64,000 bases of DNA from Martelella limonii. GTDB taxonomy: Bacteria > Pseudomonadota > Alphaproteobacteria > Rhizobiales > Rhizobiaceae. The notes beneath the pieces were generated by a model. That model saw nothing but the letters and a program-made list of their open reading frames with translations, was not told the DNA's origin and made no database searches. Positions 10,744 to 42,342 of this stretch are shown in pieces (position 1 is the stretch's first letter; each line of letters starts with the position of its first letter). The position numbers were made by a program, and so were the translations under genes. The stretch spans positions 1-64,000 of the forward strand of contig NZ_JABUOU010000007.1 of the NCBI RefSeq assembly GCF_013344475.1. The letters are read 5' to 3'.

Positions 10744-10744
10744 G

Positions 10745-22765: not shown

Positions 22766-22815
22766 GGACACGTCCTTTCTTATGGCTGCTGTGGCGGCCG
22801 GGCCGCGACGGGTGC

Positions 22816-22841: not shown

Positions 22842-22853
22842 AAGTCTCAATGC

Positions 22854-23849: not shown

Positions 23850-23956
23850 GTCGGGTTTCCTCCCTTAGGTGACATGTGGATTGCCTATGCCGCGACTTTT
23901 CTAAGATCGGGGATGCGGCATCATTAACCGGCAAAGCCGGATCTCTTGGCGAGGCC

Positions 23957-24982: not shown

Positions 24983-25065
24983 CGTCTGGTCCTCCCCGCT
25001 TGACGGGTCATCCGCGGGTGCGAGGTCGGCACATCGAGCGCCGTCCCCGTCCCGCGACACTTTTT

Positions 25066-26544: not shown

Positions 26545-26567
26545 GACAATTCCTCCCATTCACGCCT

Positions 26568-26772: not shown

Positions 26773-27825
26773 CTACTGACGGTCGGGCAGGGGCATCCAG
26801 TCCGGCGTGGCGACATCGGCATGGGCGAAGGCGGGCAGCTTTTCGCTGAGCTGCTGCATGTTCTCGATATCGCCATCGAGCAGCGCCTGCTGGGTAATCA
26901 GGGTCGGCGGCACGACCACGTTGTGGCCGGGATCCTCACCGGCAATCATCATGGCGAGCGCACGCACCGAGACCTCGCCGACGACGGCGGGATTGGTGGC
27001 AGCGGTCGCCATCCAGGCACTGCCCGGCTCGCGCATGGCGGCGATATCGGAGGTCGACACGTCGGCGGAATAGATCTTGATCGAATCCGACATGCCGGCC
27101 TCATCAACGGCGATCTTCACGCCCTTGGCGAATTCGTCATAGGGCGCGAACATGACGGTGATGGTCGGGTTTGCCGACAGAACCGACCGGGCCTGGTTGG
27201 CAACCGAGTTTGCAATCGGGTTGTCGAGCGTGCCAAAGGTCGCGACCTCGTCGATGCCCGGATATTTTTCCTTGAATTCCTGCCAGACCTCGTCGCGGCG
27301 GTCGAGCGGCGCGATGCCGGGAACATAGACATAGCCGGCCGTGAACGAATCGCCATTGTCCTTGATCGCCTGCTCGAGCGCGAGGCGAGCCAGATCGTGG
27401 TCCGACTGCTCGATCTGCGGGATCGCATCGTTTTCGACGTTCACGTCGAAGGCAACCACATCAATGCCGGCATCGACGGCGCGCTGGGCGGCTTCGCGCA
27501 TGCTTTCCGTCAGCCCGTGCTGGATGATGATGCCGTCAACGCCAAGTGCGATCGCCTGATCGACCATATCCGCCTGAAGGGCAGCATCCTGACGGCTGTC
27601 GAGAACGCGCAGGTCGATGCCGAGCGCCTTCGACTGGGCCTCGACACCTGCCAGATAGGACTGGAAGAAGTCGCCCGTGGAGAGGTAGCGCACCAGCGCG
27701 ATGGTGACATCCTCCGGCTTGTCGAAGGGTGCCGGCATGTCGGCGGCAAACGCTGCCGGTACAGCGGTGGCGGAGATAAGGGCGCCAGCCGCCATCATGT
27801 TGAACAGTCTGCGTGTGATTTTCAT
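26773..27825 (-). CDS. Sugar ABC transporter substrate-binding protein (RbsB type), second system
   Basis: A 350-residue periplasmic binding protein with a signal peptide (about residues 1-28, ending AFA) and RbsB-clan blocks (VTIALVRYLSTGDFFQSYLAGVEAQSKALGIDLRVLDSRQD, GVDGIIIQHGLTESMREAAQRAVDAGIDVVAFDVNVEND). It is the last gene of a minus-strand importer operon whose promoter region is shared with mtnK. The likely ligand is therefore the sugar phosphorylated by MtnK, perhaps methylthioribose or a 5-deoxy pentose. Confidence 0.9.
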   Translation of the reverse strand: MKITRRLFNMMAAGALISATAVPAAFAADMPAPFDKPEDVTIALVRYLSTGDFFQSYLAGVEAQSKALGIDLRVLDSRQDAALQADMVDQAIALGVDGIIIQHGLTESMREAAQRAVDAGIDVVAFDVNVENDAIPQIEQSDHDLARLALEQAIKDNGDSFTAGYVYVPGIAPLDRRDEVWQEFKEKYPGIDEVATFGTLDNPIANSVANQARSVLSANPTITVMFAPYDEFAKGVKIAVDEAGMSDSIKIYSADVSTSDIAAMREPGSAWMATAATNPAVVGEVSVRALAMMIAGEDPGHNVVVPPTLITQQALLDGDIENMQQLSEKLPAFAHADVATPDWMPLPDRQ

Positions 27826-27879
27826 ATTCTCATTCCTCCAAGTCTGAGATCCAGATCATGTGCGCCTCCTCCCGAGGGC

Positions 27880-27925
27880 CTGATACCGGCGCCAGTATCA
27901 GCTCCCGACGCGGGCGGTTGCCCGC
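27880..27925. promoter_or_regulatory. Two adjacent stem-loops between permease and binding-protein genes
   Basis: CTGATAC-N8-GTATCAG (27880-27901) and GCGGGC-GGTT-GCCCGC (27910-27925) lie in the 106-base gap inside the importer operon. They could be mRNA-processing or decay-blocking elements that let the binding-protein message accumulate independently of the membrane components. Confidence 0.45.
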
Positions 27926-27931
27926 GCTTAT

Positions 27932-28984
27932 TCAATGCTTGTGCCGGGTCGACAGCGCGAAGGTGAAGACCAGCGCGATCACCAGCACCGCACCCTTGAC
28001 GAAATCCTGCGTGTAATAGGGTGCATTCATCATCGTCAGCCCCTGCAACAGGATGCCGACGAACAGCGCGCCGATGGCCGTGCCGAAGGCATTCGGCTTG
28101 GCGGCGCCGAGAACTGCAAAGCCGATCAGCGCGGCGGCGACCGCATCGAGCAGGAGATTGTTGCCGGAAGCGATATCGCCGCGTCCGAGCCGGGCCGCCA
28201 GCAGAATGCCGCCGATCGAGGCAAACTCGGCCGAGATCACATAGGCGAGGATCTTGTACCCATTGACCGGGGCGCCAGCGAGAGCGGCAGCGCGCTCGTT
28301 GGAGCCGACCGCATACATCATCCGCCCGAACCGGGTGAACTCCAGGAAAAACCAGATCAGGATCGCAAGCACGATCAGGACAACCACCGAAACCGGCACC
28401 AGATTGGGCAGAATGAGGTCGAAGCGATGACGGCCGAGCGCCAGAAAGGCCGCGCTGAAAGCGCCTTCCGCCTGCGAACCGTCCGGCAGGGTCATGCCGG
28501 TCGCAATCGAGCGGCCTTCGGTCGGAATGCGCTGCAGCCCGAGCAGCAGGAACATCATGCCGAGCGTGGCCAACAGATCGGGCACGCGGCCATAGACGAT
28601 GAGAATCCCGTTGATCAGGCCGATCAGGCCGCCGATCACCAGGCAGACGGCGACGGCCTCGAAGGCATTGCCGCCCATCACCACCATCACATAGGACGAC
28701 GCCATCAGCGCCGTGGTCGCAACCGAGCCGATCGAGAGGTCAAATCCGCCGACGACGAGGGTGGCGGTGACGCCGAGCGCCAGAATGCCGGTGATGGAGA
28801 CCGACTGCAGGATAAAGACCGCGCTCTGCGGCGAGGCAAAGCCCTTGGCGGAGATCGAGAACACGAGAATCAGCGCGAACAGAAGCGCCAGAAAGCCGTA
28901 TTTGATGGCAAGCGCGCGTGCGCCGCCGCTGGTCTTTTTCGGCTTGGCCGCAGCGGCTGCAGGGGCGGTGTCGTTATGGGTCAT
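27932..28984 (-). CDS. Sugar ABC transporter permease (RbsC type), second system
   Basis: A 350-residue polytopic permease with the RbsC hallmark (VFILQSVSITGILALGVTATLVVGGFDLSIGSVATTALMASSYV) and the loop GSNERAAALAGAPVNGYKILAYVIS. A polar N-terminal tail rich in alanine and lysine precedes the first span. It overlaps the upstream ATPase gene by four bases. Confidence 0.9.
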   Translation of the reverse strand: MTHNDTAPAAAAAKPKKTSGGARALAIKYGFLALLFALILVFSISAKGFASPQSAVFILQSVSITGILALGVTATLVVGGFDLSIGSVATTALMASSYVMVVMGGNAFEAVAVCLVIGGLIGLINGILIVYGRVPDLLATLGMMFLLLGLQRIPTEGRSIATGMTLPDGSQAEGAFSAAFLALGRHRFDLILPNLVPVSVVVLIVLAILIWFFLEFTRFGRMMYAVGSNERAAALAGAPVNGYKILAYVISAEFASIGGILLAARLGRGDIASGNNLLLDAVAAALIGFAVLGAAKPNAFGTAIGALFVGILLQGLTMMNAPYYTQDFVKGAVLVIALVFTFALSTRHKH

Positions 28985-30495
28985 TGGCTCACCATTTCCA
29001 GACGCCCGGCGATCTGGGCGAGAAGTGTATCGAGGTCGATTTCAAGGTTGCGATGCTCGCCGACGATCGTGTGTTCCGACATCACCAGAATGCGGTCGGC
29101 GATCTCGAAGGCTTCGTCGAGTTCGGTCAGGAAGACGATGGTTGCCCGGCCGGCCGCCGACTGACGCAGCGTCGAGGCGATATCGCGCCGGGCAGCAATG
29201 TCCACGCCCTGGAACGGCTCGTCGAGCACGAGCAGGCGGGCATCCTGGCTGAGCCAGCGCCCGACCATCACCTTCTGCTGGTTGCCGCCGGAAAGCGTCT
29301 GCATCTGGTCGCGCTCGGTGCGGCAGACGACATTCAGACCGGCAATCTGGTCGCGGGCTTGCGCCTTTTCGCGCGACCGGCTCATCACGCCGAACGATGA
29401 CAGACGCTTCAGGAACGGCAGGCTGATATTCTCGTAAATGTTGAAGTCGGGCACGATACCGCTGACCGCGCGATCCTTGGCAACCAGGAAGACGCCATCG
29501 GCGATCGCGGCACCCGGATTCTTGGGCGCATAGGGACGCCCTTCGAGCGTCATGCTGCCGCCATGGGGGCGGCGCGCGCCGAACAGCGTTTCGGCAAGCA
29601 CCGTCTTGCCGACGCCGACCAGACCGGTGACAGCCACCACCTCGCCCTCGAGGAGCGCCAGCGAGAACGGCTTGCGGTTGGGCGCGATCACGAGGTTTTC
29701 GGCCGAAAACACCTCCGGCCCGCCGTCGCGGACATCGACATGGCCCTGGCCGATGGTGCGGCCCAGCATGGCATCGACGGCGCCCTTGTAATCGAGCTCC
29801 GGCCCCTCGAACACGCCGGAAATCCGCCCGTCGCGCAGCGCGACGATGGTATCGGCGAGCCGGCGGATGTCGGACATGCGGTGGGAAATATAGAGGATCG
29901 CGACGCCATCGGCGCGCAGCCGGTCGAGCAGCGCAAACAGTCGGTCAGCCTCGGCACTCGACAGCGACGATGTCGGCTCGTCGAGAATCAGCACGCGCGG
30001 CTTGTGCGCCATGGCGCGGGCAATCGCGACCATCTGCCGGTCGGCAAGCGAGAGATCCGAGACCTTGGCGGAAAGATCGAGCGAGAGCCCCATGGCCTCG
30101 GCGACGCGACGCGCCTGCCGGCGTACCTTGTAGGGATTGAAGAACATCGAAGCGCCGCGACCCGACAGGCGGTCGAGCACGAGATTGGTCGCGACATCGA
30201 GATCGGCGGCCACGCCGTCATTGATGTTCTGGTGAACGGTGACGACACCGGCGGCAATCGCCTCGGCGGGTGTTGCCGGAGTAAAGGGCTTGCCTGCAAG
30301 CGAAATGGTGCCGCTGTCGGGCCGGTAAAGCCCGGTGACGGTGCGCACGAGCGTCGACTTGCCGGCGCCATTGGCGCCCATCAGCACGGTCACGGCGCCA
30401 GCGCAAAGGTCGAGATCGACCCCATCCAGCACCTGGATAGGCCCGAACGCCTTGCGCAGCCCGTTGATACGGAACACTGCGGTCATGAATTTCAA
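28981..30495 (-). CDS. Sugar ABC transporter ATP-binding protein (RbsA type), second system
   Basis: A 504-residue double-cassette ATPase: GANGAGKST, LSLADRQMVAIARAM and LILDEPTSSLSSAEADRL in the first half; GLVGVGKTVLAE, LSGGNQQKVMVGRWL and LVLDEPFQGVDIAARRDI in the second. It is the first gene of the importer operon and is divergent from mtnK. An alternative start four codons in (MTAVFRING) would also give a full-length protein. Confidence 0.9.
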   Translation of the reverse strand: MKFMTAVFRINGLRKAFGPIQVLDGVDLDLCAGAVTVLMGANGAGKSTLVRTVTGLYRPDSGTISLAGKPFTPATPAEAIAAGVVTVHQNINDGVAADLDVATNLVLDRLSGRGASMFFNPYKVRRQARRVAEAMGLSLDLSAKVSDLSLADRQMVAIARAMAHKPRVLILDEPTSSLSSAEADRLFALLDRLRADGVAILYISHRMSDIRRLADTIVALRDGRISGVFEGPELDYKGAVDAMLGRTIGQGHVDVRDGGPEVFSAENLVIAPNRKPFSLALLEGEVVAVTGLVGVGKTVLAETLFGARRPHGGSMTLEGRPYAPKNPGAAIADGVFLVAKDRAVSGIVPDFNIYENISLPFLKRLSSFGVMSRSREKAQARDQIAGLNVVCRTERDQMQTLSGGNQQKVMVGRWLSQDARLLVLDEPFQGVDIAARRDIASTLRQSAAGRATIVFLTELDEAFEIADRILVMSEHTIVGEHRNLEIDLDTLLAQIAGRLEMVSQ

Positions 30496-30530
30496 CTCCT
30501 CCCGCCATCATCCTAGGAGCGGAAATCATC

Positions 30531-30595
30531 AAATGTCAACAGCAATGACATTTGACAGAAAAACGAAATAGCAAATGTCATTAGTGTTGACAAAT
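30531..30595. promoter_or_regulatory. Twin operators in the transporter/mtnK divergent promoter
   Basis: Two dyads with the same layout lie in the 177-base divergent gap: AAATGTCA-N7-TGACATTT (30531-30553, perfect) and AAATGTCA-N7-TGACAAAT (30573-30595). Their centres are 42 bp apart, four helical turns, so a tetrameric regulator could contact both on one DNA face. SorC-family proteins are tetramers, and one is encoded downstream at 36180. Coordinated control of the importer and the pathway genes is the likely purpose. Confidence 0.65.
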
Positions 30596-30672
30596 GACAG
30601 CGTGCGACGCTAGCGTGATCGAAAGCCCTGCGGAAGCGCGACATCGCAAGGGCGCATTTGGGAGGATGTTCT

Positions 30673-31941
30673 ATGGCGCTGGAAGAGGCCTTTGAGGCAC
30701 TGGAACCCGCAACCCTGCCGTCGCGGTTGGGCGGGCTGAAGGTGTTGACCGAAAAGCTGGGAGAGCCGTCAGGCTGGCAGGTTCGCGAGGTCGGCGACGG
30801 CAATCTGAACCTCGTGTTCATCGTCGAGGGCGGCGGCAGCGCCATGATCGTCAAGCAGGCGCTGCCCTATGTGCGCCTTGTCGGCGAGGGCTGGCCGCTG
30901 CCGCTGAAGCGCTCCTTCTTCGAATATAATGCGCTGATCCGCCAGGCCGCGCGCGCGCCCGGTTCCGTGCCGGAGGTTTTTCACTTCGACGAGGCGCAGG
31001 CGATCATCGTTCAGGAATTCCTGACGCCCCATATCATCCTGCGCCGGGCGCTGATCGAAGGCGAGAACCTGCCGAAGATCGGCCCCGATCTCGGCCTGTT
31101 CATGGCCCGCACGCTGTTCAGGGGCTCGGACCTTTCGATGAAGGCGGTCGCGCGCAAGAAGGACATGGCGCTGTTTTCCGAGAATGACGCGCTCTGCGAC
31201 ATTACCGAATCCCTCGTGTTCACCGATCCCTATTACGATGCCGACATGAACAGCCACACCACGCCCGAACTTGACGGCGTCGTGGCAAGGCTGCGCGCCG
31301 ACCGGGACCTGAAGGTGGCGGCACAGGACATGAAGCTTGCTTTCGTGACCCGCGCGGAAACCATGCTCCACGGCGACCTGCACACCGGCTCGATCATGGT
31401 GACGGCAGACGAGACAAGGGTGATCGATCCCGAATTCGCCTTCTACGGCCCCATGGCCTTCGATGTCGGCATGCTGCTTGCCAATTTCTGGATGAGCTAT
31501 TTCTCCCAGCGTGGCCATGAGCAGGAAGGATCGCGCGACGCCATGCGCGCCTTCCTGCTCGACACGATCTCGACCACATGGGCCGTGTTCCGCGACGAGT
31601 TTGCCCGCCTGTGGCGCGAGGAGCGCACCGGCATTCTCTATCAGCGCAGCCTTTACGAGGACCAGGGCGACAGCCTGGGCGCGGAACAGGCGCTGGACGC
31701 CTTCCTGCATGCGCTGTTCGAAGACATGCTCGGCTTTGCCGGCGTCGAGATCCATCGCCGCATTCTGGGTCTTGCCCACAACGCCGACTTCGAAACCATC
31801 GCCGATCGCGCGCAGAAGGCCCGTTCGGAGACGGCGGCGCTCGAATTCGGCCGCCACATCGCCGTCAACCGCCGCCACATCAGCAGCCTTGACGCTTTGG
31901 AAAGACTGGCCATGCGGCTTGAAGAGGAGAGCGCCCGATGA
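30673..31941 (+). CDS. mtnK: S-methyl-5-thioribose kinase
   Basis: A 422-residue kinase of the APH-like fold. MtnK phosphorylates the anomeric hydroxyl of 5-methylthioribose; homologues also accept 5-deoxyribose. Visible are [17 protein letters not shown] (nucleotide loop), [11 protein letters not shown] (ATP lysine), the catalytic [12 protein letters not shown] and metal-binding [19 protein letters not shown]. Its length is normal for MtnK. GGAGG precedes the ATG at 30673. It overlaps mtnA by four bases and is divergent from a sugar importer, so the substrate is probably taken up, rather than made only inside the cell from methylthioadenosine. Confidence 0.92.
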
Positions 31942-33032
31942 AGGTTGGCGACAAGCATTACCGCACGATCTGGCTGAACGAGGATGGCCGCTCCGTTGAT
32001 ATCATCGACCAGCGCTGGTTGCCCCATGATTTCCGGATCGTTACGCTTTCAACGGTCGAGGCGGTCGCGACCGCGATTTCCGACATGTGGGTGCGCGGCG
32101 CCCCTCTGATCGGCGTCACCGCGGCCTATGGCGTGGCAATCGCCATGCTCGATGATCCGTCGGACGACAATCTCGACGCCACCTGGGACAGGCTGCACGA
32201 AACCCGGCCCACCGCCATCAACCTCAAATGGGCGCTGGACGAGATGCGCAAGACGCTCCGTCCTGTTGCGCCCGAAAAGCGCGCCGAGGCGGCTTACGCC
32301 CGCGCGGCCGAAATTGCGGACGAAGACGTGGCGCTCAACCGCGCCATCGGCGGTCACGGACTTGAGATTATCAAGAAGATCGCAGCCGGCAAGAAGCCCG
32401 GCGAGCCGGTGAACATCCTGACCCATTGCAATGCCGGCTGGCTTGCAACCGTCGACTACGGCACGGCGACCGCGCCGGTCTATCTCGCGATGGAAGCAGG
32501 CATTCCGGTCCATGTCTTCGTCGACGAAACCCGCCCGCGCAACCAGGGCGCCCAGCTGACCGCGTGGGAGATGAACGGCCACGGCGTGCCGCACGATCTG
32601 ATCGTCGACAATGCCGGCGGCCATCTGATGCAGCATGGCGAGATCGACATGGTGATCGTCGGCACGGACCGCACCACCGCGTCGGGCGATGTCTGCAACA
32701 AGATCGGCACCTATCTGAAGGCGCTGGCGGCAAAGGACAACGGGGTGCCGTTCTACGTCGCCCTGCCGTCACCGACCATCGACTGGACCGTCAATGACGG
32801 CGTTTCCGAGATCCCGATCGAGGAGCGGAGCGGCGACGAGGTCAGCTTCGTTCAGGGTGAAAATGCCGAGGGCGCGATCATTTCCGTCCGGATTTCGCCC
32901 AAGGGCACGCCCGCGCGCAATCCGGCCTTCGACGTCACGCCTGCCAGGCTCGTGACCGGCCTGATCACCGAGCGCGGCGTTGCCGAGGCGTCTGCCGAAG
33001 GTCTTGCCCGGCTGTTTGAGAAAGAGAATTGA
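31938..33032 (+). CDS. mtnA: S-methyl-5-thioribose-1-phosphate isomerase
   Basis: A 364-residue aldose-ketose isomerase of the eIF2B-like family that converts methylthioribose-1-P to methylthioribulose-1-P. It has [35 protein letters not shown] with the catalytic cysteine, [17 protein letters not shown], and [25 protein letters not shown] with the catalytic aspartate. The N-terminal tail and length are those of true MtnA. Homologues also act on 5-deoxyribose-1-P. It is followed five bases later by transketolase genes rather than mtnB. Confidence 0.93.
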
Positions 33033-33037
33033 GACCC

Positions 33038-33973
33038 ATGCCCCTGACCAACCAGAAATCGACCGAGGACGTCGCGCACGGTATCCGCAAGCGCGTGTTC
33101 CTGCACACGATGCGCAACAATGGCGGCTATCTGAGCCAGGCCTGTTCGGCCGCCGAAAGCCTTGCCTTTCTCTATAACGAGGCGCTCAATCTCGGAGCGC
33201 CGACGCTGCCGCCCGTGCCGAAGCCCTTTGCCGGCGTGCCTTCGGCCGATAATCCGGATGCCTTTACCGGCGCCGGTTATCACGGCCCCTTCGGCCCGGA
33301 TTACGACCGCTTCTTCGTCTCGCCCGCCCATTATGCGCTGGTGATCTATTCCGCGCTGATCGAGATGGGGCGCATGGACGAGAACGCGCTCGACCATTTC
33401 AACAAGGATGGCGGCTCGGTGGAAATGATCGGGGCCGAGCACTCTCCCGGCATGGAAGTCACCACCGGCTCGCTGGCGCAGGGCCTTTCCATGGCCTCCG
33501 GTGTTGCCTTTGCCCGCAAGCGCGCGGGCGAAAAGGGCAAGGTCTGGGTCTACATGTCGGACGGCGAGTTCCAGGAGGGCCAGACCTGGGAGTGCATTTC
33601 CAACATGCGCCACCACGGCATCGACAACATCCGCGTCATCGTCGACGTCAACAACCAGCAATGCGACGGCGCCATGGCCTCGGTGCAGGAACTGGTCAAT
33701 CTGCCGGAGCGCATCACGGCCTTCGGCGCCACCTGCCGCTCGATCAACGGTCATGATCTCGAGGCCATGCGAGACGCGGCGGCAAGCGCCGAGCCCGGCA
33801 AGCCGCTGATCATCCTTGCCAATACCTCGCCCTATCAGGGCATGGATTTTCTCAAGAAGCGCTTCCCGCGCCTTCATTACGTCCGCTTCAAGAGCGAGGC
33901 CGAGCGCGTCGAGATGCGCGATGCGCTGGCCGCCGAACTTGGCGTCGACATGCAAGAAATCGAAAAGGCCTGA
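33038..33973 (+). CDS. Transketolase, N-terminal subunit (TPP-binding)
   Basis: The TPP/metal-binding half of a split transketolase, 311 residues. It has GSLAQGLSMASGVAFARK, YMSDGEFQEGQTWECISNM and VDVNNQQCDG (the GDG...NN thiamine diphosphate motif, with SDG in place of GDG). The C-terminal half is the next gene. Split transketolases can have narrow substrates, for example the apulose-4-phosphate enzyme AptAB. It lies between mtnA and a RuBisCO-like gene, so its donor is probably a product of those enzymes. Confidence 0.88.
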   Translation: MPLTNQKSTEDVAHGIRKRVFLHTMRNNGGYLSQACSAAESLAFLYNEALNLGAPTLPPVPKPFAGVPSADNPDAFTGAGYHGPFGPDYDRFFVSPAHYALVIYSALIEMGRMDENALDHFNKDGGSVEMIGAEHSPGMEVTTGSLAQGLSMASGVAFARKRAGEKGKVWVYMSDGEFQEGQTWECISNMRHHGIDNIRVIVDVNNQQCDGAMASVQELVNLPERITAFGATCRSINGHDLEAMRDAAASAEPGKPLIILANTSPYQGMDFLKKRFPRLHYVRFKSEAERVEMRDALAAELGVDMQEIEKA

Positions 33974-33975
33974 TC

Positions 33976-34977
33976 ATGGTGGAAATCGTCAACCGACCGT
34001 ATGCTGCGGCATTCGAAACCTTCGCTACAGCCCGGCCCGAAGTGATGTGCCTTTCGGCGGATCTCACCTCGTCCTGCGAGGTCGATGGCTTCCGCGACCG
34101 CCATCCCGACCAGTTCCTCTCGCTCGGCATGGCCGAGCAGAACATGCTGTCCTTTGCCGGCGGACTTGCGATGCAGGGCTACCGCCCCTTCATCCACACC
34201 TTCGCAGTGTTTCTGTACCGCAGGCCCTACGACCAGCTGATCAATTCGATCGCCTATTCCAACCGCAAGGTGCGGATGATGGGTTTCCTGCCCGGCATTA
34301 CCACGCCCGGTGGCATCACCCATCAGGCGATCGAGGATATCGCCGTGATGCGCGCGATCCCCAACATGACGGTGCTGGAAACCGGTGACGCGACCGAGGT
34401 CGAGACCGTGCTCGAGGTTGCCGACAGCATTGACGGCCCGGTCTATGTGCGGGTGCTGCGCGGCCAGGTGCCGCGGCTGTTCTCGACGCCTTTCGAATTC
34501 AACAAGCTGAGGACGCTGAGCTCCGGCGACGACATTCTGGTGCTGACCTCGGGCGTCTGCACCGAAGAGGCCCTGCGCGCGACCGCAGCGCTTTCGGAAA
34601 AGGGCGTCGGCGTCCACCACCTCCACGCCTCGACGCTGAAACCCTTCGACCGCGCTACCTTCCTTGAAGCTGCGCGCGGCAAGAAGGGCGTGATCACGCT
34701 CGAAAACCACATCATCACCGGCGGGCTCGGCACGATTGCGGCTGAGATCATCGCGGAGGAGGGGCTTGGCGTGAAGCTTCGCCGTCTCGGCCTCAACGAC
34801 ACCTTCGCGCACGGCGCATCCAAGCCGTATCTGATGAAGAAATACGGTCTCGATGCCGGTGCGCTGGTGGCGGCCATCGAGGATGTGCTCGGCGCCAAGC
34901 TCGGCATCACCGACGATGCCCTGCAGGCCGTGCGTCTTGATGCCGTCCATTCGGCGGAAAAGGCGGAGGCGCTGTGA
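33976..34977 (+). CDS. Transketolase, C-terminal subunit (pyrimidine-binding)
   Basis: A 333-residue subunit with the catalytic glutamate in SLGMAEQNMLSFAGGLAMQGYRPFIHTFAVFL, MMGFLPGITTPGGITHQAIEDIAVMRAIPNM, and a C-terminal Rossmann-like domain (DILVLTSGVCTEEAL). It must pair with the preceding N-terminal subunit, two bases upstream. The stop overlaps or abuts the RuBisCO-like start (GTGATG), so these are co-translated. Confidence 0.88.
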   Translation: MVEIVNRPYAAAFETFATARPEVMCLSADLTSSCEVDGFRDRHPDQFLSLGMAEQNMLSFAGGLAMQGYRPFIHTFAVFLYRRPYDQLINSIAYSNRKVRMMGFLPGITTPGGITHQAIEDIAVMRAIPNMTVLETGDATEVETVLEVADSIDGPVYVRVLRGQVPRLFSTPFEFNKLRTLSSGDDILVLTSGVCTEEALRATAALSEKGVGVHHLHASTLKPFDRATFLEAARGKKGVITLENHIITGGLGTIAAEIIAEEGLGVKLRRLGLNDTFAHGASKPYLMKKYGLDAGALVAAIEDVLGAKLGITDDALQAVRLDAVHSAEKAEAL

Positions 34978-36092
34978 TGGCGGAACGCTTCATCGCATCC
35001 TATCTGATCGGCGAGACCGATTACGAGACCGCCAAACAGCGCGCGCTCAACATCACCGTCGAACAGACCGTCGAGATCCCCCGCGACATCGTTCCGGCAG
35101 GCTATGTCGAGGATGAGATCCTCGGGAGGCTGGAGGGCCTTGAGGCGCGCGATGGCGGCCATGTCGCCGCGATCTCCTACAGCATGGACGATGCCGGCGG
35201 CGACTTCCTGCAATTCCTGAATGTGCTGTTCGGCAATTCCTCGATCCTGCAGCAGACGCGGCTGATCGGCTTGAAGCCGTCTCCGGCGCTCGCAGAGATC
35301 ACGCCCGGTCCGCGTTTCGGGCGGGCAGGGCTCCTGGAGCTTGCCGGCGCCGCGGACGGACCGCTTCTGATGTCGGCGATCAAGCCGGTCGGGCTTTCTA
35401 CGGCTGATCTTGCGCGCCTCGCCGGTGACTTCGCGCTCGGCGGCATGGATTTCGTCAAGGACGATCATGGCCTTGCCGACCAGAAGACCGCGCCCTTTTC
35501 CGAACGGCTTTCCGCTTGCGTTGCAGCAATCGAGGAGGCCAACGGCAAGACCGGCTTCAGGACGCGGTTCATCCCCAACATCACCGCGCATCGCGGCGGC
35601 ACGATCGAGCGCGCCTATGAGGCGAAGGAGGAGGGGGCCGGCGGCGTGATGCTGGCACCGGCGCTTGCCGGTTACGATGTTGCCCGCCAGCTTGCGGCCG
35701 ACCCCGATTTCGGTCTGCCGATCATCTCTCACCCGGCTTTCTCCGGCGCCAATGTGGTGGGCGCGGGCTGCGGCTTTTCGCATGCCTTCTATTACGGCAC
35801 GCTGCAGCGATTGATGGGTGTCGATGCCGCCGTCTACCCGAATTTCGGTGGCCGCTTCAGCTTCTCGCGCGCCGAATGCCTGTCGATCGTCGATGCCTGC
35901 CTGGAAGAATTCGCTGGGCTCAAGCCGATCCTGCCGGCGCCGGGCGGCGGCATGACATTCGAGCGGGTCCCGGAGATGCAGGACGCTTACGGCAAGGACG
36001 TGATCTACCTCATCGGCGGCGCGCTGATCCGCGAACGCGAAACGCTGGTGGCTGCATGCCGCAGGCTATGTGAAACGGTGCGGGCAGGGTAG
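34977..36092 (+). CDS. RuBisCO-like protein (form IV family)
   Basis: A 371-residue member of the RuBisCO large-chain superfamily. The equivalents of the active-site lysines are K136 in SAIKPVGLS and K161 in GGMDFVKDDHG. D163 is kept, but the position of RuBisCO E204 is H164 and the second loop lysine (K177) is replaced, so CO2 fixation is not expected. Family members act as enolases or 1,3-isomerases (methylthioribulose-1-P to 1-methylthioxylulose-5-P in Rhodospirillum rubrum) or as decarboxylases/transcarboxylases in apionate catabolism. Behind mtnK and mtnA the isomerase role is most attractive. Start ATG 34977 is preferred to the overlapping GTG at 34974. Confidence 0.88.
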   Translation: MAERFIASYLIGETDYETAKQRALNITVEQTVEIPRDIVPAGYVEDEILGRLEGLEARDGGHVAAISYSMDDAGGDFLQFLNVLFGNSSILQQTRLIGLKPSPALAEITPGPRFGRAGLLELAGAADGPLLMSAIKPVGLSTADLARLAGDFALGGMDFVKDDHGLADQKTAPFSERLSACVAAIEEANGKTGFRTRFIPNITAHRGGTIERAYEAKEEGAGGVMLAPALAGYDVARQLAADPDFGLPIISHPAFSGANVVGAGCGFSHAFYYGTLQRLMGVDAAVYPNFGGRFSFSRAECLSIVDACLEEFAGLKPILPAPGGGMTFERVPEMQDAYGKDVIYLIGGALIRERETLVAACRRLCETVRAG

Positions 36093-36179
36093 GGCAGATG
36101 CTTGCGGGCGGGTGGCGAAAGGGGCAAGTTCACTTTTTTCACCCGACCTGGATAATGTCCATTGCACAACGAGAGCACG

Positions 36180-37127
36180 ATGCTGATCCGACCGAGCGAC
36201 CGCATTCTTCATAAAGCTGCCTGGCTTTACTACACCCACGGGCTGCGCCAGGACGAGGTTGCCAGACAGCTCGACATTTCGCGGGCCTCGGTCGCGATGT
36301 ATCTGCGCCGCGCCCGCGAGATGGGCATCGTCACGATCTCCACCTCGACTGAGCTCTTTGCCGACGACGTGCTGGCCCGCGAGATGGAAGACCTGATCGG
36401 GCTCGAGGCGGTCTGGATCGTGCCCGAGGATCGCCAGGCGCTCGACCCCGACACCGAAATGCCGGTGGTGGCCGCCGCCGTGTTCCAGGGCCTGATCAAC
36501 AAGGGCGACAAGGTCGGCGTCGCCTGGGGGCGGACGGTCTATCACATCGCCGATGCCATGCCCTTTGCAGACCTGCAGGGCGTGACCGTGATCCAGCTCT
36601 GCGGCAATCTCGGCGCGCCCTATAATTATCGCCCCGACCAGTGCACCACGGAAATCGCGCGGCGGCTGAATGCCGAGGGCATCAATTTCTATGCGCCACT
36701 TGTGCTGAGCACGGAGGCGCTCTGCACCGCGCTGCGCAACGAGGACATCATCCACCAGCAGATGGCTATGATCGGCGAATGCGATTTGGTGCTCTATTCC
36801 GTCGGCGGCATCGCACCCGACAGCCACCTCGTCACCTGCGGCGCGCTGTCGGCGGAGGCGATCGAGGCGCTCGGCGAAGAGGGCGCGGCCGGCGTGATCG
36901 CCGGCCAGGTGATCGATGAAAGCGGCGCGATCATGGACTGCGAACACAATCGCCGCTGCATTTCCGCCGATCTCGACACGCTGCGCAACATCCCGAAGCG
37001 GCTGATGGTGGTGCAGGAGCGTGAGAAGTTCGAGGCGTTGAAAGCGGCGCTCAGAGGCGGCTTCGTGTCCCATCTGGTGGTGACCCGCAGCATGGCCGAA
37101 CAGCTCATGGAAGCCTGGAAGGCCTGA
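36180..37127 (+). CDS. SorC/DeoR-type sugar-sensing transcriptional regulator
   Basis: A 315-residue regulator with helix-turn-helix LYYTHGLRQDEVARQLDISRASVAMYLRRAREMGIV and a SorC sugar-phosphate domain (GDKVGVAWGRTVYHIADAM, LCGNLGAPYNYRPDQCTTEIARRL, RLMVVQEREKFEALKAALRGGFVSHLVVT). It matches the regulator half of the fusion protein at 17444 in architecture. It sits inside the pathway operon and probably binds the twin operators at 30531-30595, responding to a pathway phosphate intermediate. The ATG at 36180 is preferred over a TTG six codons earlier. Confidence 0.9.
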   Translation: MLIRPSDRILHKAAWLYYTHGLRQDEVARQLDISRASVAMYLRRAREMGIVTISTSTELFADDVLAREMEDLIGLEAVWIVPEDRQALDPDTEMPVVAAAVFQGLINKGDKVGVAWGRTVYHIADAMPFADLQGVTVIQLCGNLGAPYNYRPDQCTTEIARRLNAEGINFYAPLVLSTEALCTALRNEDIIHQQMAMIGECDLVLYSVGGIAPDSHLVTCGALSAEAIEALGEEGAAGVIAGQVIDESGAIMDCEHNRRCISADLDTLRNIPKRLMVVQEREKFEALKAALRGGFVSHLVVTRSMAEQLMEAWKA

Positions 37128-37192
37128 GCCGGGCCTTGCGGAACTGAAGGTTTTGAAAGACCGGGACCCGAGGGTCTCAGGGAGGATGATCG

Positions 37193-39247
37193 ATGGAAAA
37201 TCTCTGGAACGATGCCGCGGCAAAGGCGGCTGTCGAGCGCTACGGCAAGGACGGCGTCAACGCGGATCTCGCGCTTTGCACCTACACCACCCGCCTTCTG
37301 GGCGGCGAGCCGCGCCTGGTGCTCCATGGCGGCGGAAACACATCGGTCAAGACGAGCGCCCGTGACCTCGTCGGTGAAGACTTCGACGTGCTCTGCGTCA
37401 AGGGCAGCGGCTGGGACATGGCAACGATCGAGCCTGCGGGCCTTCCGGCGGTCAAGCTGAAGCCGCTGTTGAAGGCGCGCGCCTTCGATGCGCTTTCGGA
37501 TGAGGACATGGTAACGCTGCAGCGCGCCAATCTGATCGACCCTTCGTCACCCAACCCCTCGGTCGAAACGCTGCTCCACGCTTTCCTGCCGCAGAAATTC
37601 GTCAACCACACCCATTCGACCGCGGTGCTGGCGATCGTCGATCAGGCCGAGAGCCTGAGGCTCTCCGAAGCCGCGTTCGGCGACCGCTTCGCCTTCGTCC
37701 CCTATATCATGCCGGGTTTCGCGCTCGCCAAGGCCGCCGCCGAAGCCTACGACGCCAAACCCGATGCCGAGGCGCTGATCCTCGACAAGCACGGCATCTT
37801 CACCTTCGCGGAAACCGCGAAGGACGCCTATGACCTGATGATCGACTATGTCAGCCGCGCGGAAGACTATGTCCGGCGCGAGGGCCGTCCGGCCTTCCAC
37901 GCCGTCAGCCTGCCCGAAGGTCTTGCAGGGCCGGAAGCGATCGCACCGATCCTGCGCGGCGCAGTCGCGATCCGCCGCGAGGGCAAGCGCTTCGGGCGCA
38001 TGGTCAATGATTTCCGCGCCTCGCCTGAGATCATGGACTTCGTCAATGCCGCCGAGCTTTCCGACATGGCCGAGCGCGGCGTCTCGACGCCCGACCTTTC
38101 GATCCGGATCAAGACCGGCCCGATGGTACTGCCGGCGCCGGTTGCGACCGATCTCGCAGGCTTCGCGGAGGCGACCGCCGATGCCGTTTCGCGCTACAGC
38201 GCCGCCTACACGGACTATTTCAATGAGAACAATAATCGCGACGACGTCCAGCGGACCATGCTCGACACCATGCCCCGGCTGACGCTGGTGCCGGGCGTCG
38301 GCCTGTTCGGTCATGGCCGCACGGCAAAGGAAGCCAAGATCGCCGCCGATCTCGGCGAGATGTGGATCGAGGCGGCGCGCGATGCCGAAATGGTCGGACG
38401 GTTCGAGCCTGTCAGCCGCCCGGACCTGTTCGATCTCGAATACTGGTCGCTGGAGCAGGCGAAGCTTGCCGGCAACAAGGAAAAGCCGCTGACCGGCCAG
38501 GTGGCGCTCGTCACCGGCGGCGGCGGCGCGATCGGGGCGGCCGTTGCCCGCCTGTTTGCGACAGAAGGGGCGCATGTCGTCGTCGCTGACCTTGATGGTG
38601 ACCGTGCGAAAGAGGTCGCGAAAGAAGCCGGCAATGGCGCGATCGGCGTCGCGATGGATGTCACCGATCCGGTTTCGGTCAGGGCCGGGTTCGACGCAGC
38701 GGTCAAGCGCTTCGGTGGCGTCGATGTCGTGGTGTCCAACGCAGGCGCGGCCTTCCAGGGGCCGATTGCGACGCTCGATGACGCCTTGCTGCGCAAGAGT
38801 TTCGAACTGAACTTCTTCGCTCATCAGAGCGTGGCGCAGCAGGCGGTCCGGATCATGAAGGCGCAGGCGACCGGCGGCGCGCTTCTGTTCAATGCCAGCA
38901 AGCAGGCGGTCAATCCCGGCGCCGATTTCGGCGCCTACGGTCTTCCCAAGGCCGCAACCCTGTTCCTGTCGCGCCAATATGCGCTGGAGCACGGCAAGGA
39001 CGGGATCCGCTCCAACGCCGTCAATGCCGATCGCATCCGCTCCGGCCTTCTCGACGATCAGATGATCGCTAGCCGCGCGGCCGCTCGCGGTCTGACCGTT
39101 GCCGAATATATGGGTGGCAATCTGCTCAACCGCGAGGTCACCGCCGACGATGTCGCCCACGCCTTTCTCGATCTCGCGCTCGCCGAAAGCACCACGGCAA
39201 GCGTCACCACAGTCGATGGCGGCAATATCGCCGCAGCGTTGAGATAG
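37193..39247 (+). CDS. Bifunctional class II aldolase / short-chain dehydrogenase
   Basis: A 684-residue fusion. Residues about 1-410 form a class II (zinc) aldolase domain, with LVLHGGGNTSVK, the metal histidines in VNHTHSTAVLAI, and LILDKHGIFTFAETAKDAYDLMI. Residues about 430-684 form an SDR domain with LVTGGGGAIG, NAGAAFQGP, and the active-site NASKQ...AYGLPKAA (YxxxK). This is the layout of rhamnulose-1-phosphate aldolase/dehydrogenase fusions. Here it may split a ketose-1-phosphate to dihydroxyacetone phosphate plus an aldehyde and then change the aldehyde or another intermediate's oxidation state. No rhamnose isomerase or kinase is nearby. Confidence 0.88.
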   Translation: MENLWNDAAAKAAVERYGKDGVNADLALCTYTTRLLGGEPRLVLHGGGNTSVKTSARDLVGEDFDVLCVKGSGWDMATIEPAGLPAVKLKPLLKARAFDALSDEDMVTLQRANLIDPSSPNPSVETLLHAFLPQKFVNHTHSTAVLAIVDQAESLRLSEAAFGDRFAFVPYIMPGFALAKAAAEAYDAKPDAEALILDKHGIFTFAETAKDAYDLMIDYVSRAEDYVRREGRPAFHAVSLPEGLAGPEAIAPILRGAVAIRREGKRFGRMVNDFRASPEIMDFVNAAELSDMAERGVSTPDLSIRIKTGPMVLPAPVATDLAGFAEATADAVSRYSAAYTDYFNENNNRDDVQRTMLDTMPRLTLVPGVGLFGHGRTAKEAKIAADLGEMWIEAARDAEMVGRFEPVSRPDLFDLEYWSLEQAKLAGNKEKPLTGQVALVTGGGGAIGAAVARLFATEGAHVVVADLDGDRAKEVAKEAGNGAIGVAMDVTDPVSVRAGFDAAVKRFGGVDVVVSNAGAAFQGPIATLDDALLRKSFELNFFAHQSVAQQAVRIMKAQATGGALLFNASKQAVNPGADFGAYGLPKAATLFLSRQYALEHGKDGIRSNAVNADRIRSGLLDDQMIASRAAARGLTVAEYMGGNLLNREVTADDVAHAFLDLALAESTTASVTTVDGGNIAAALR

Positions 39248-39365
39248 GATTGAATTCCTGCACGCCATAGACAGGACGCGGCCTCCATTACAGGGAACCG
39301 TGTGATAAGGTCAGAGGGTGTCGGAGACCCTCCCCGCCACAACCGTTTTTGTGAAAGGAACTGCC

Positions 39366-39800
39366 ATGCTGAAAGGGATCGATCCGCTTCTGGGGCCCGA
39401 CCTCCTGCACGTGCTTGCCATGATGGGCCACGGCGACGAGATCGTGATTGTCGACGCCAATTTCCCGGCCGCGTCGGTCGGCGAGCAGACCGTTTACGGT
39501 TCGCCGCTTGCCATTGGATGCGATGCGATCAAGGCGCTCGCCGCGATCCTGACCGTCCTGCCTCTCGACGCATTCGAGCCCGACCCTGTCGTCACCATGC
39601 AGGTCGTCGGCGAGCCGGATACCGTGCCGCCCGCCATTGCCGATGCGCTGCCGATCATCAAGGCCGAAGGCTATGAGCCGGCCTCGCTCGAACGTTTCGA
39701 CTTCTATCAGCGCGCCAGTGAAGCCTTCGCCATCGTCGCCACCAGCGAGATGCGCCCCTATGGCAATTTCATCCTGCGCAAGGGCGTGATCTTCAGCTGA
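39366..39800 (+). CDS. RbsD/FucU-family sugar mutarotase
   Basis: A 144-residue protein of the RbsD/FucU family, which speeds anomer interconversion of free pentoses or deoxy-hexoses. The catalytic histidine is in LAMMGHGDEIVIVDANFP and the C-terminal block is RPYGNFILRKGVIF. FucU-type features (the YGNFILRKGV ending) favour a deoxy sugar. In this operon it would supply the anomer used by MtnK, whose substrate is phosphorylated at the anomeric carbon. It is separated by 118 bases from the aldolase gene. Confidence 0.88.
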   Translation: MLKGIDPLLGPDLLHVLAMMGHGDEIVIVDANFPAASVGEQTVYGSPLAIGCDAIKALAAILTVLPLDAFEPDPVVTMQVVGEPDTVPPAIADALPIIKAEGYEPASLERFDFYQRASEAFAIVATSEMRPYGNFILRKGVIFS

Positions 39801-39811: not shown

Positions 39812-39842
39812 GGGATCGCGCTCAATAGCCGAGCGCGATCCC
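39812..39842. terminator. Bidirectional terminator-like hairpin
   Basis: GGGATCGCGCTC-N7-GAGCGCGATCCC is a perfect 12-bp stem between the converging mutarotase and gamma-glutamyltransferase genes, overlapping the stop of the latter. There is no long T-run, but the convergent position fits transcription termination for both. Confidence 0.65.
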
Positions 39843-41411
39843 GTCCTTGCGGTGGTCGGAGGCACCCCACAGCACGCCGCGTGCGTGGTCGATCATGATC
39901 GCCTGGCATCCGCCAAGCGGCTCGTCGGCGATCCGGGTCTTGTGCCCGCGCCGCTCCAGCTCGCGCCGCACATCTTCCGGGATTGTCGGCTCCAGGCTGA
40001 TTGCGCCTTCGGTGAAGAAACTGCGCGGCTGGTCGGAGGCCATCTGCACATCGAAACCGCGATCGACGACCTGCGAGATGAAATGGGCATGGCCGTTTGC
40101 CTGGTACTGCCCGCCCATGACGCCGAACGAGATCACCGGCTTTTCGTCCTGAAACAGCATCGCCGGGATAATGGTGTGGAACGGCCGTTTCGAGGGACCG
40201 ATGACGTTTGCATGGCCTTCCTGAAGCGAGAAGCCGCTTCCGCGGTTTTGCAGCAGAACGCCCGAGCCTTCCGCGTAGATGCCGCTTCCGAAGGCCGCGA
40301 AGATAGAGTTGATCAGCGAGATCGCATTGCCGTCGCGATCGACGACGCTGACATAGACCGTGTCCTTGTGAACCGGCATGTCGAGCGCGGTCGGATCGGA
40401 TGCCCGATCAAGCGATATCTTCGATCGGATCGCGGCGATCCGGTGTTCGTCGAGAAGTTCTTCAACGGAAACGCACATCGTGTCGGGGTCGGATATATAG
40501 AGATCGCGCTGGCGGTAGGCCGACTTTGCGGCCTCGGCCAGAAGATGGATGCGATCGGCATCCGACAGACGGCCTTCGCCAAGATCGAAGCCTTCGAGGA
40601 TGCGCGTCATGATCAGCGCGGCAAGCCCCTGACCGTTGGGCGGGCACTCCATCAGCTTGAAGCCGCGATAATCGGCGGCGATCGGCTCTGCCATGTCCGG
40701 GCGCGCATTTTCGAAATCTTCAAGCGTGTGAAGCCCGCCAAGCGCCTTGAGGGTGTTCACGATATCCTCGGCAACCTCTCCCTCGTAAAACGCCTTTCGG
40801 CCCTCGCGCGCTATCTTTTCAAGCGTTGCCGCAAGGGCCTCGTTGCCGAGCCGGTCGCCAACCGAAGGCGCGCGCCCTCCCGGCAGGAATTGCCGGACGG
40901 AGGCTTCATGCGCCTTCAGCCTGCCGGCATAACGCGACCAGTCGCGGGCAACGCGCGGGGCAACCGTAAAGCCCTCGCGCGCCGCACGGATCGCCGGCTG
41001 AAGAATGGCGTCGAGCCCAATGCGGCCATAGGTGCTGCTGAGATGGTCCCATGCGCCGACCGCACCCGGGACGGTGACCGAATGCACCGAGAGATCGGAA
41101 ATCGCCGTCATGCCCTGACTTCGGAGCAGGGCGGCATCGGCGGCGGCTGGCGCGCGCCCCGAACCGTTGAGCGCAACCGGCTTGCCGCCTGCCGGCGTAT
41201 AAAGCGCGAAACAATCACCGCCGATGCCGGTCATATGCGGATCGACCACGCCCTGCAGGGCGACCGCTGCAATCGCCGCATCCACCGCATTGCCGCCGGC
41301 ACGCAGGATATCGAGCGCGGCGAGCGTTGCCTGCGGATGCGATGTCGCGGCCATCGCATTTTCGGCGATGGCAACGGACTTGCCGGGTTTCATGAAGTCG
41401 CGTTCCCGCAT
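39822..41411 (-). CDS. Gamma-glutamyltransferase-family hydrolase without signal peptide
   Basis: A 529-residue Ntn-hydrolase of the GGT family. Autocleavage should free the catalytic threonine in VHKDTVYVSVVDRDGNAISLINS; MTGIGGDCFALYTP, PNGQGLAALIM and VSFGVMGGQYQANGHAHF-type blocks (here ISFGVMGGQYQANG) are present. No signal peptide is visible (MRERDFMKPGKS), whereas most GGTs are periplasmic. Cytosolic relatives include oxamate amidohydrolase (HpxW) and other amidases, so the substrate may not be glutathione. The start at 41411 follows GGGAGAG; the open frame upstream overlaps the divergent cysQ gene. Confidence 0.85.
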   Translation of the reverse strand: MRERDFMKPGKSVAIAENAMAATSHPQATLAALDILRAGGNAVDAAIAAVALQGVVDPHMTGIGGDCFALYTPAGGKPVALNGSGRAPAAADAALLRSQGMTAISDLSVHSVTVPGAVGAWDHLSSTYGRIGLDAILQPAIRAAREGFTVAPRVARDWSRYAGRLKAHEASVRQFLPGGRAPSVGDRLGNEALAATLEKIAREGRKAFYEGEVAEDIVNTLKALGGLHTLEDFENARPDMAEPIAADYRGFKLMECPPNGQGLAALIMTRILEGFDLGEGRLSDADRIHLLAEAAKSAYRQRDLYISDPDTMCVSVEELLDEHRIAAIRSKISLDRASDPTALDMPVHKDTVYVSVVDRDGNAISLINSIFAAFGSGIYAEGSGVLLQNRGSGFSLQEGHANVIGPSKRPFHTIIPAMLFQDEKPVISFGVMGGQYQANGHAHFISQVVDRGFDVQMASDQPRSFFTEGAISLEPTIPEDVRRELERRGHKTRIADEPLGGCQAIMIDHARGVLWGASDHRKDGIALGY

Positions 41412-41553
41412 AAGTTCTCTCCCAAATGCGCCAGATGGAGCCGGCCAGAACCGTATATCGATGGTGCAATCTTCTCCAGACCGCTTTATAGCGTTCGCTG
41501 ATACGGGATCAAAGGCCGATGCGACGGCTGGTGAAGATGAAAGAGGTGCCGGG

Positions 41554-42342
41554 ATGGCCGAGATGCAGCAGGTTTTCCTCGATGCGGCGCTGGAAGCCGG
41601 CATCGCGATCATGGCGATCTACGACAAAGGAATCGAGGTTGCTTATAAAGCCGATTGCTCGCCGGTGACCGAGGCCGACAACCAGGCGGAAGTCATCATC
41701 CTCCGGCATCTGACGAATGCCTTTCCGGACATTCCCGTGATCGCCGAAGAAAGCGTTGCCGCGGGCCGGGTGCCTGATATCGCCGGCGGGCGCTTCTTTC
41801 TGGTCGATCCGGTGGACGGCACCAGAGAATTCATCAACCGCCGCGCGGATTTCACCGTCAATATCGCGCTCATCGAAGACGGCAAGCCGGTCGCCGGCAT
41901 TGTCTATGCTCCTGCGCGCAATGTGGCCTATCGCACCAACGGAAATGGCGCCGAGAAGCTGACGATTGCAAACGGCGCGGTAGTCAAGGCAGAGCCGATC
42001 AGCTGCCGCTCCATGCCTGACGCGCCGGTCGCCGTTGCCAGCCGATCGCACAACACGCCGGAGACGGACGCGTTCATGCAGAAGATCGGCGTCGCCGGCA
42101 TTGAATCGGTCGGATCATCGCTGAAATTCTGCCTCGTTGCCGAGGGGGTTGCCGATGTCTACCCGCGTTTCGGCAGGACGATGGAGTGGGATGTCGCAGC
42201 AGGCGACGCCATCGTGAGGGCTGCAGGCGGCATGACCGAATGCGCCACCAGAAAGACAGCCTTCGCCTATGGCAAGACCAACCAGAACACCGACAGCGAT
42301 TTTGCCAATGGCAATTTCATTGTCTGGGGCCGGCGGGATTAG
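41554..42342 (+). CDS. cysQ: 3'(2'),5'-bisphosphate nucleotidase CysQ
   Basis: A 262-residue inositol-monophosphatase-fold enzyme that removes the 3' phosphate of PAP left by sulfate reduction or sulfotransfer. Motifs are AEESV, FLVDPVDGTREFINRRADFTVNIALI (metal-binding DPVDGT plus the CysQ-type TREFI) and RTMEWDVAAGDAIVRAAGG. GAGGTGCC precedes the ATG at 41554. It is divergent from the GGT-family gene. A plasmid copy may support sulfur traffic around the other sulfur genes of the window. Confidence 0.88.
   Translation: MAEMQQVFLDAALEAGIAIMAIYDKGIEVAYKADCSPVTEADNQAEVIILRHLTNAFPDIPVIAEESVAAGRVPDIAGGRFFLVDPVDGTREFINRRADFTVNIALIEDGKPVAGIVYAPARNVAYRTNGNGAEKLTIANGAVVKAEPISCRSMPDAPVAVASRSHNTPETDAFMQKIGVAGIESVGSSLKFCLVAEGVADVYPRFGRTMEWDVAAGDAIVRAAGGMTECATRKTAFAYGKTNQNTDSDFANGNFIVWGRRD

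Follow-up and report, generated by a model that had tools for sequence, protein, structure and literature searches.

Positions 26773-39800 of a 64,000-nucleotide stretch of Martelella limonii DNA (assembly GCF_013344475.1, contig NZ_JABUOU010000007.1, positions 1 to 64,000; the whole stretch is here called the window and its genome G000) carry a gene cluster that probably catabolises imported 5-methylthioribose, and probably 5-deoxyribose, by way of a RuBisCO-like protein (RLP) of the DeepYkr kind followed by a transketolase split over two genes. 5-Methylthioribose is a sulfur-bearing sugar derived from S-adenosylmethionine. The pathway is reconstructed from sequence comparisons, gene neighbourhoods and the published chemistry of relatives.

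In this scheme the importer would bring in 5-methylthioribose, as the nearest solved relative of its binding protein suggests. Judging by family assignments, MtnK would phosphorylate C1 and MtnA would then give 5-methylthioribulose-1-phosphate. The RLP, by analogy with relatives in Rhodospirillum rubrum and Rhodopseudomonas palustris, would shift the carbonyl along the chain to yield 1-methylthioxylulose-5-phosphate. With a phosphate at the far end and CH3S-CH2-CO at the other, this product is shaped like a transketolase donor. The split transketolase would cut between C2 and C3, releasing glyceraldehyde-3-phosphate and holding the substituted two-carbon unit on thiamine diphosphate (ThDP). 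We propose this last step because the transketolase is conserved beside the RLP and has lost the ligand of the donor C1-hydroxyl. A class II aldolase fused to a short-chain dehydrogenase (SDR) probably gives the exit known from the dihydroxyacetone phosphate (DHAP) shunt.

Open frames and domain scans place the importer genes on the minus strand, divergent from a plus-strand run that extends from mtnK to a mutarotase gene, and confirm the order given in a preliminary description of this DNA: importer, mtnK, mtnA, split transketolase, RLP, SorC regulator, aldolase-SDR and mutarotase. The same description had noted overlaps or gaps of a few bases from mtnK to the RLP, and these neighbours indeed overlap or have at most 11 bases between them; gaps of 84, 65 and 70 bases precede the SorC, aldolase-SDR and mutarotase genes, respectively. 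The features are as follows.

26773-27825, minus strand: importer periplasmic binding protein (Pfam Peripla_BP_4; phmmer to 4ry8, E 2.5e-68)
27932-28984, minus strand: importer permease (BPD_transp_2; domain scans)
28981-30495, minus strand: importer ATPase with two ABC domains (domain scans)
30529-30555, no strand: operator-like palindrome 1, in the divergent promoter region (pattern scan)
30571-30597, no strand: operator-like palindrome 2, 42 bases from palindrome 1 (pattern scan)
30673-31941, plus strand: MtnK, 5-methylthioribose kinase (TIGR01767, 484.6 bits, cut-off 275; motifs GDGNLN, HGD, DPE and RR)
31938-33032, plus strand: MtnA, 5-substituted ribose-1-phosphate isomerase (TIGR00512, 432.9 bits, cut-off 279)
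33044-33973, plus strand: transketolase N-terminal (ThDP) half (H26 to Tyr, H100 to Ile or Met, E. coli numbering)
33976-34977, plus strand: transketolase C-terminal half (H461 to Phe, D469 to Gly, E. coli numbering)
34977-36092, plus strand: RLP of the DeepYkr kind, predicted 5-substituted ribulose-1-phosphate 1,3-isomerase (Pfam RuBisCO_large; 3qfw; tree; common residues)
36177-37127, plus strand: SorC/DeoR-type sugar-responsive regulator (Pfam Sugar-bind plus helix-turn-helix)
37193-39247, plus strand: class II aldolase fused to SDR (NF006192, 1085.4 bits, cut-off 639; RhaD model TIGR02632, 489.6 bits, under its cut-off of 567.75)
39318-39800, plus strand: FucU/RbsD-like mutarotase (NF011949, 104.9 bits, below the cut-off of 141)

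Conservation of the RLP-transketolase neighbourhood

Genome searches, in which at most five candidates were scored per genome, yielded 58 separate RLP places with E values of 1e-30 or better, and neighbours were examined at 55 of them (G151, G271 and G264, which gave no locus, were left out). The C-terminal half of the transketolase adjoins the RLP at 28 places, the cupin of the isoprenoid shunt at 20, both at none and neither at seven. Twenty-seven of the 28 were assigned by script, and the remaining one, G368 (L069), was added from search coordinates since its RLP had been dropped by the gene caller. Among the seven with neither neighbour, the transketolase of G130 lies some 21 kb from the RLP, and in G231 the two genes are both found where contigs end. 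A search of genome contigs with a single RLP sequence returned three loci only, one of them the contig G001:C54 of Martelella mediterranea IOP_24, whose RLP is 84% identical to that of the window.

The association also holds at the level of whole genomes. Across 397 genomes of the order, the transketolase C half (E 1e-120 or better) is present in all 22 that have this RLP subtype (E 1e-85 or better) and in four of the 375 others, or in five if a 46%-identical match in G077, left out of the test, is counted; in one of the four exceptions, G341, the RLP is cut by a contig end. The Fisher p value of 2e-32 serves as a guide only, the genomes being related and not independent.

The preliminary description had allowed that the RLP and the transketolase might not be conserved neighbours of mtnK and mtnA, which would have counted against its scheme; the genome comparison did not bear this out. 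In 20 of the 28 RLP-transketolase loci, spread across several families, MtnK and MtnA lie in the same locus. Three further genomes (G404, G427, G364) have MtnK and MtnA elsewhere, together with the same kind of importer, and in G450 MtnK is on another contig. Within the stretches of 4 to 20 kb around the 28 loci, an importer binding protein is found at 20, an aldolase at 17 and a mutarotase at five. The isoprenoid-shunt cupin was found in none of 25 transketolase-type genomes, G000 among them, and in three of three controls. The acireductone dioxygenase (ARD) of aerobic methionine salvage, encoded by mtnD, was not found in G000; the 25 genomes gave two weak partial matches, one of them over the cut-off. 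The lack of a cupin and of mtnD, first noted for the window, thus extends to a genome-wide search of G000.

An altered donor site in the split transketolase

Residues were compared with E. coli TktA, whose numbering is used here, in 29 RLP-linked pairs (L097 and L133, with the N half missing or cut, were left out). D155, N185, H261, E411, F437, H473 and R520 are kept in all 29, and H66 in each of the 28 pairs that extend over it. R358 and S385 are each kept in 28, the exception being Lys for R358 and Asn for S385. The residues that bind ThDP and magnesium and the Glu that activates the cofactor are therefore present (D155, N185, E411, H473, H66). Four other positions have changed: H461 is Phe and D469 is Gly in 29 of 29 pairs, and in all 28 whose N half is complete H26 is Tyr and H100 is Ile. 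A second alignment pairs H100 with the adjacent Met and H261 with a gap. Eighteen full-length transketolases from 14 of these genomes were compared as well, and all 18 retain H26, H100, H461 and D469; G000 likewise has a normal full-length transketolase in addition to the split one. DXS models match the window transketolase below cut-off.

H100 is a donor-binding residue. DXPS has Phe in its place, and pyruvate use by a Geobacillus enzyme rises with H100F or H100L (PMC7661550). Pyruvate is also accepted by an E. coli variant that combines H100L and D469T with four stabilising changes (PMC10787763). Since pyruvate has no C1-hydroxyl, changes at H100 and D469 are of the kind that admits donors without this group. 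With H100, the ligand of the donor C1-hydroxyl, lost and Gly at D469, the likely donor is 1-(methylthio)- or 1-deoxy-xylulose-5-phosphate. The predicted RLP product of methylthioribose or 5-deoxyribose is such a donor and probably fits the changed site. That the transketolase uses the RLP product had been inferred in the preliminary description, and both the conserved adjacency and the donor site now support this proposal.

A transketolase could also use the 5-substituted ribose, or its phosphate, as acceptor. A promiscuous transketolase has been proposed to form 7-deoxysedoheptulose from 5-deoxyribose in Synechococcus, and the reaction works in vitro (PMC8102628). This is quite unlikely here, as the pair still accompanies the RLP in genomes whose MtnK lies apart or is missing (G404, G427, G364, G341, G368) and a donor-side ligand is among the changed residues.

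Split transketolases more distant from these show a different pattern. In 15 compared from the phylum sample (L108-L123), R358 is Ala or Gly and S385 is Tyr. Several adjoin an SDR gene, and R358 and S385 being phosphate-binding positions, these enzymes perhaps act on unphosphorylated substrates; the Tyr resembles the laboratory-evolved change S385Y.

The RLP is probably of the isomerase kind

The nearest solved chain to the window RLP is 3qfw (E 2.6e-68). Two known RLP functions were considered and rejected. First, an MtnW-type enolase of 2,3-diketo-5-methylthiopentyl-1-phosphate is contradicted by model scores (NF007095, 182.4 against 409; TIGR03332, 152.4 against 513.6) and by a separate position in the tree. 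Second, the OiaX model (3-oxo-isoapionate-4-phosphate decarboxylase, NF042437) gives 62.1 bits against a cut-off of 700, and the eight OiaX-like rows used form a clade of their own (support 100/97). The second result bears on a pathway for apionate or apiose that would pair an OiaX-type RLP with an apulose-4-phosphate transketolase. The latter enzyme takes part in apiose catabolism. RLPs act in apiose catabolism as well (PMC6302742), but the scores and the tree make such a pathway extremely improbable.

In a tree of 54 rows, from which near-duplicate 4 kb loci, 13 of 21 OiaX-like rows and the cupin loci of a later class-wide search were excluded, all the RLPs of the present kind form one branch apart from the OiaX-like rows and MtnW (97/94). 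Within it, the cupin-linked rows used, plus L088, are one clade (100/100), and the transketolase-linked RLPs fall mostly in a 32-row clade (96/92), with L105, L067 and L124 outside. The window RLP is about 40% identical to its cupin-linked relatives. Comparison of 34 transketolase-type with nine cupin-type RLPs reveals just three near-fixed differences, and N87, K136, K161 and D163, which by the 3qfw comparison appear to correspond to RuBisCO catalytic positions, are common to both types. A structure model of the RLP from a three-sequence alignment was weak (mean pLDDT 53.7) and was not used.

The DeepYkr RLPs of R. rubrum and R. palustris are methylthioribulose-1-phosphate 1,3-isomerases (PMC5893883). 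Given the tree and the common residues, the RLP reaction is probably this published isomerisation, and what has changed is the consumer of its product. The preliminary description had likened the window RLP to the R. rubrum isomerase; model scores, tree and common residues support this kind over the apionate kind. One further arrangement may be another DeepYkr context: in L088 (positions 6552-11454, G262), MtnK (38%), an iron-type dehydrogenase, the RLP (36%) and a PfkB kinase lie in a row.

The imported sugar and its phosphorylation

The importer is of the CUT2, or RbsABC, type. The best solved relative of its binding protein is 4ry8, with 234 bits over residues 28-345, followed by 5ulb with 136 bits, and the best entry annotated for ribose reaches 54 bits. 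According to its title in the Foldseek output, 4ry8 is a 5-methylthioribose transporter solute binding protein from Thermotoga lettingae, and it is also the best Foldseek match. The structure model submitted was built from a three-sequence alignment and used only to list the nearest structures and their titles; as it is weak (mean pLDDT 50.7), the sequence match carries the weight. At about 36% identity to 4ry8 the ligand can be predicted but not read off directly, and by this nearest relative the imported sugar would be 5-methylthioribose.

Both MtnK and MtnA exceed their curated cut-offs, and the MtnK translation carries the kinase motifs GXGNXN, HGD, DXE and RR as defined previously (PMC2194712). 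In L061, one of the other Martelella loci, the MtnA frame is open and overlapped by another frame.

The same steps could instead serve 5-deoxyribose, which the RLP would convert to 1-deoxyxylulose-5-phosphate and the transketolase to glyceraldehyde-3-phosphate and a unit at the level of acetaldehyde. The E. coli enzymes MtnK, MtnA and Ald2 handle both sugars (PMC10986504), and the loss of the C1-hydroxyl ligand suits a methyl group as well as CH3S-CH2. The binding protein, however, is nearest to a methylthioribose-binding structure, and a molybdenum enzyme gene near some of the loci hints at sulfur. Its best model is that of the BisC S/N-oxide reductase family, which gives the L127 protein 901 bits and the L087 protein 866, neither reaching the cut-off of 1017.55; relatives lie near the module in six of the 28 RLP loci (G404, G427, G364, G450, G341, G368) and in L127. 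5-Deoxyribose is thus a possible substrate, but as the primary one it is rather doubtful, the binding-protein match and the oxide-reductase-like gene leaning to methylthioribose.

For ordinary ribose, the route would run from ribose-1-phosphate through ribulose-1-phosphate to xylulose-5-phosphate and normal transketolase chemistry. An RLP acting on ribulose-1-phosphate would yield xylulose-5-phosphate, and RbsABC-type importers fit such a sugar, but MtnK scores over the methylthioribose-kinase cut-off, H100 is gone and a normal full-length transketolase is already present in G000, all of which make this route very unlikely. The cluster had initially been described as a candidate pentose pathway: for substituted pentoses this reading is supported in part, and the label is too wide in taking in ribose itself.

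A possible fate of the two-carbon unit

The aldolase route would already free (methylthio)acetaldehyde, so a second enzyme that merely frees it again would gain little. This leads us to a tentative and, on balance, doubtful suggestion from chemistry: on cutting 1-methylthioxylulose-5-phosphate, the transketolase might expel methanethiol from the bound unit and leave acetyl-thiamine, which would go on to acetate or acetyl phosphate. Phosphoketolase offers a parallel, as it expels water from its thiamine-bound unit. The products would then be glyceraldehyde-3-phosphate, an acetyl unit and methanethiol, and neither oxygen nor glutathione would be needed. If methanethiol is indeed lost in this way, the transketolase would be a new thiamine enzyme that completes methylthioribose breakdown, and its retention next to the aldolase route would be accounted for.

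Variant loci and evidence against the proposed pathway

Several loci combine the RLP and transketolase with other genes. The BMP family includes nucleoside importers, and in Ponticoccus L127 a BMP-family importer, a purine nucleoside phosphorylase (PNP), an amidohydrolase, MtnA, the molybdenum enzyme, the transketolase and the RLP lie in a row. Pelagibacterium L034 has the importer, mtnK, mtnA, transketolase, RLP, SorC and the end of an aldolase-SDR gene, and beside its RLP are relatives of the L127 phosphorylase, amidohydrolase and BMP protein at 42-50%. On a Vibrio nigripulchritudo plasmid (L124, positions 8054-12673), the transketolase pair accompanies an RLP (35%), an FGGY kinase and a different importer. 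Based on these three variants, the module seems to accept input from several feeders.

For nine close transketolase pairs, no RLP was seen alongside (L080-L083, L094, L102, L103, L125, L126, of which L102 and L103 are 4 kb stretches). The BisC-like gene occurs near five of them (L080, L081, L083, L125, L126). An FGGY kinase and a Zn-dehydrogenase are found in L082, L083, L125 and L126, and an aldolase and SorC in L083, L125 and L126; L080-L083, L125 and L126 perhaps belong to a route based on the direct phosphorylation of a free 1-substituted ketose.

A number of observations weigh against the proposed pathway. First, the donor-site changes are not confined to RLP-linked enzymes. All nine RLP-less pairs share the Tyr, Ile, Phe and Gly, including the distant pair of L094 (positions 8243-10127; 32% and 46%), which has a TRAP transporter, an enoyl-CoA hydratase and an amidohydrolase nearby, and loss of H26 and H100 extends to L108-L123 and L128. 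The donor may therefore come by other routes, and the RLP need not be its only source. Second, the site itself is imperfectly explained: the H100 column holds Ile or Met depending on the alignment, there is a His four positions after the Ile, and DXS, although its product shares the D-threo end, retains D469, which leaves the loss of this Asp here unexplained. Third, the transketolase-linked label requires at least three changes on the RLP tree and is thus not a clean clade. Fourth, a class-wide search added 16 RLP places, two of them by a transketolase, 11 by a cupin and three by neither, and the proportion of 28 in 55 is therefore weighted towards the window's kin and order. Fifth, no MtnK was found in G368 or G341 despite their RLP and transketolase, nor in G130, among the genomes tested (a set without G983 and G708). 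Sixth, in G000 no methylthioadenosine (MTA) phosphorylase or MTA nucleosidase scores over cut-off, so that the host would probably depend on an external supply of the free sugar; across 25 transketolase-type genomes the phosphorylase is over cut-off in seven and the nucleosidase in none. Finally, the L127 phosphorylase is over the general PNP cut-off and reaches just 57.8 bits with the MTA phosphorylase model, and the amidohydrolase has sub-cut-off matches to deaminases of 5'-deoxyadenosine and of MTA/S-adenosylhomocysteine. In L094 the same type of transketolase seems to be put to another use.

Some of the same loci raise the prospect of two unrelated functions in one operon, for example methylthioribose salvage by the aldolase, with the RLP and transketolase serving another imported sugar. 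In the g148 genomes the RLP-transketolase locus lies apart from the MtnK-MtnA-importer locus, in Vibrio L124 the pair and the RLP are joined with an FGGY kinase, and the nine RLP-less pairs have the same donor site. Set against this are the 20 of 28 loci, in several families, that hold MtnK, MtnA, transketolase and RLP together, and Ponticoccus L127, which joins MtnA to the transketolase and RLP without MtnK. We consider two separate functions unlikely, and a single pathway through the RLP and transketolase remains the preferred reading.

Regulation and surrounding genes

The importer and mtnK had been described as diverging across twin operators, and two palindromes do lie between them. The 27-base sequence TCAAATGTCA-N7-TGACATTTGA is exact in the first palindrome and carries 3 mismatches in the second, and no other match with 6 or fewer mismatches occurs in the 64 kb. 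All three other Martelella loci (L060-L062) have the pair too. Among eight further loci scanned, a single copy with at most 2 mismatches is near mtnK in five (L033, L034, L063, L064, L129), none is found in L065 or L075, and L072 has just 6-mismatch matches. We infer that SorC is the likely reader of the two palindromes, through which it would probably act as a repressor.

By eye, the genes to the left of the cluster (window positions 17444-26559) comprise a second sugar importer, an SDR, dihydroxyacetone-kinase-like genes and a SorC-kinase fusion, apparently a separate operon. On the right, a gamma-glutamyltranspeptidase-like gene (39822-41612, by eye) is convergent with the mutarotase gene; the isoprenoid shunt as known gives rise to adducts of glutathione. 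ParB/RepB-like and RepA-like genes at 1106-3324 (by eye) mark the contig as a probable repABC plasmid or chromid.

Relation to known systems and significance

The closest known system is the MTA-isoprenoid shunt of R. rubrum and R. palustris, in which MtnA is likewise followed by a DeepYkr RLP (PMC5893883, PMC4958253). The window type differs in lacking the cupin methylsulfurylase (0 of 25 genomes), in having the split transketolase by the RLP, and in that the importer and MtnK replace MtnP. Its first half therefore appears to be held in common with the shunt and its second half to have been replaced. The DHAP shunt, for which the use of carbon from imported sugars by E. coli is published, similarly clusters MtnK, MtnA and a class II aldolase, Ald2 (PMC10986504); in the window the aldolase (Aldolase_II domain) is fused to a dehydrogenase, its specificity is putative, and the RLP and transketolase are additional. 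Loss of H100 is shared with DXS and with the transketolases engineered for 1-deoxy donors, one of which is also changed at D469 (PMC7661550, PMC10787763). Unlike these, the window enzyme is natural and encoded by two genes, with Gly at D469, Phe at H461 and Tyr at H26. The split transketolase of Carboxydothermus hydrogenoformans (6yaj/6yak; PMC7661550), the nearest solved relative of both halves, is a two-gene enzyme as well, but it keeps His and Gly-Glu-Asp in the H461-D469 region and is a general transketolase. In the open-access papers searched, no description joining an RLP, a transketolase and methylthioribose was found, and the combination appears to be undescribed.

In the genomes examined, a split transketolase takes the place of the cupin beside many DeepYkr RLPs of this order and beside a few from elsewhere. 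If the proposed pathway is correct, it would give the RLP product a second fate and would represent a natural case of the donor switch that engineers have made through H100 and D469. It would also mean that soil and marine alphaproteobacteria turn by-products of S-adenosylmethionine into carbon, and perhaps sulfur.

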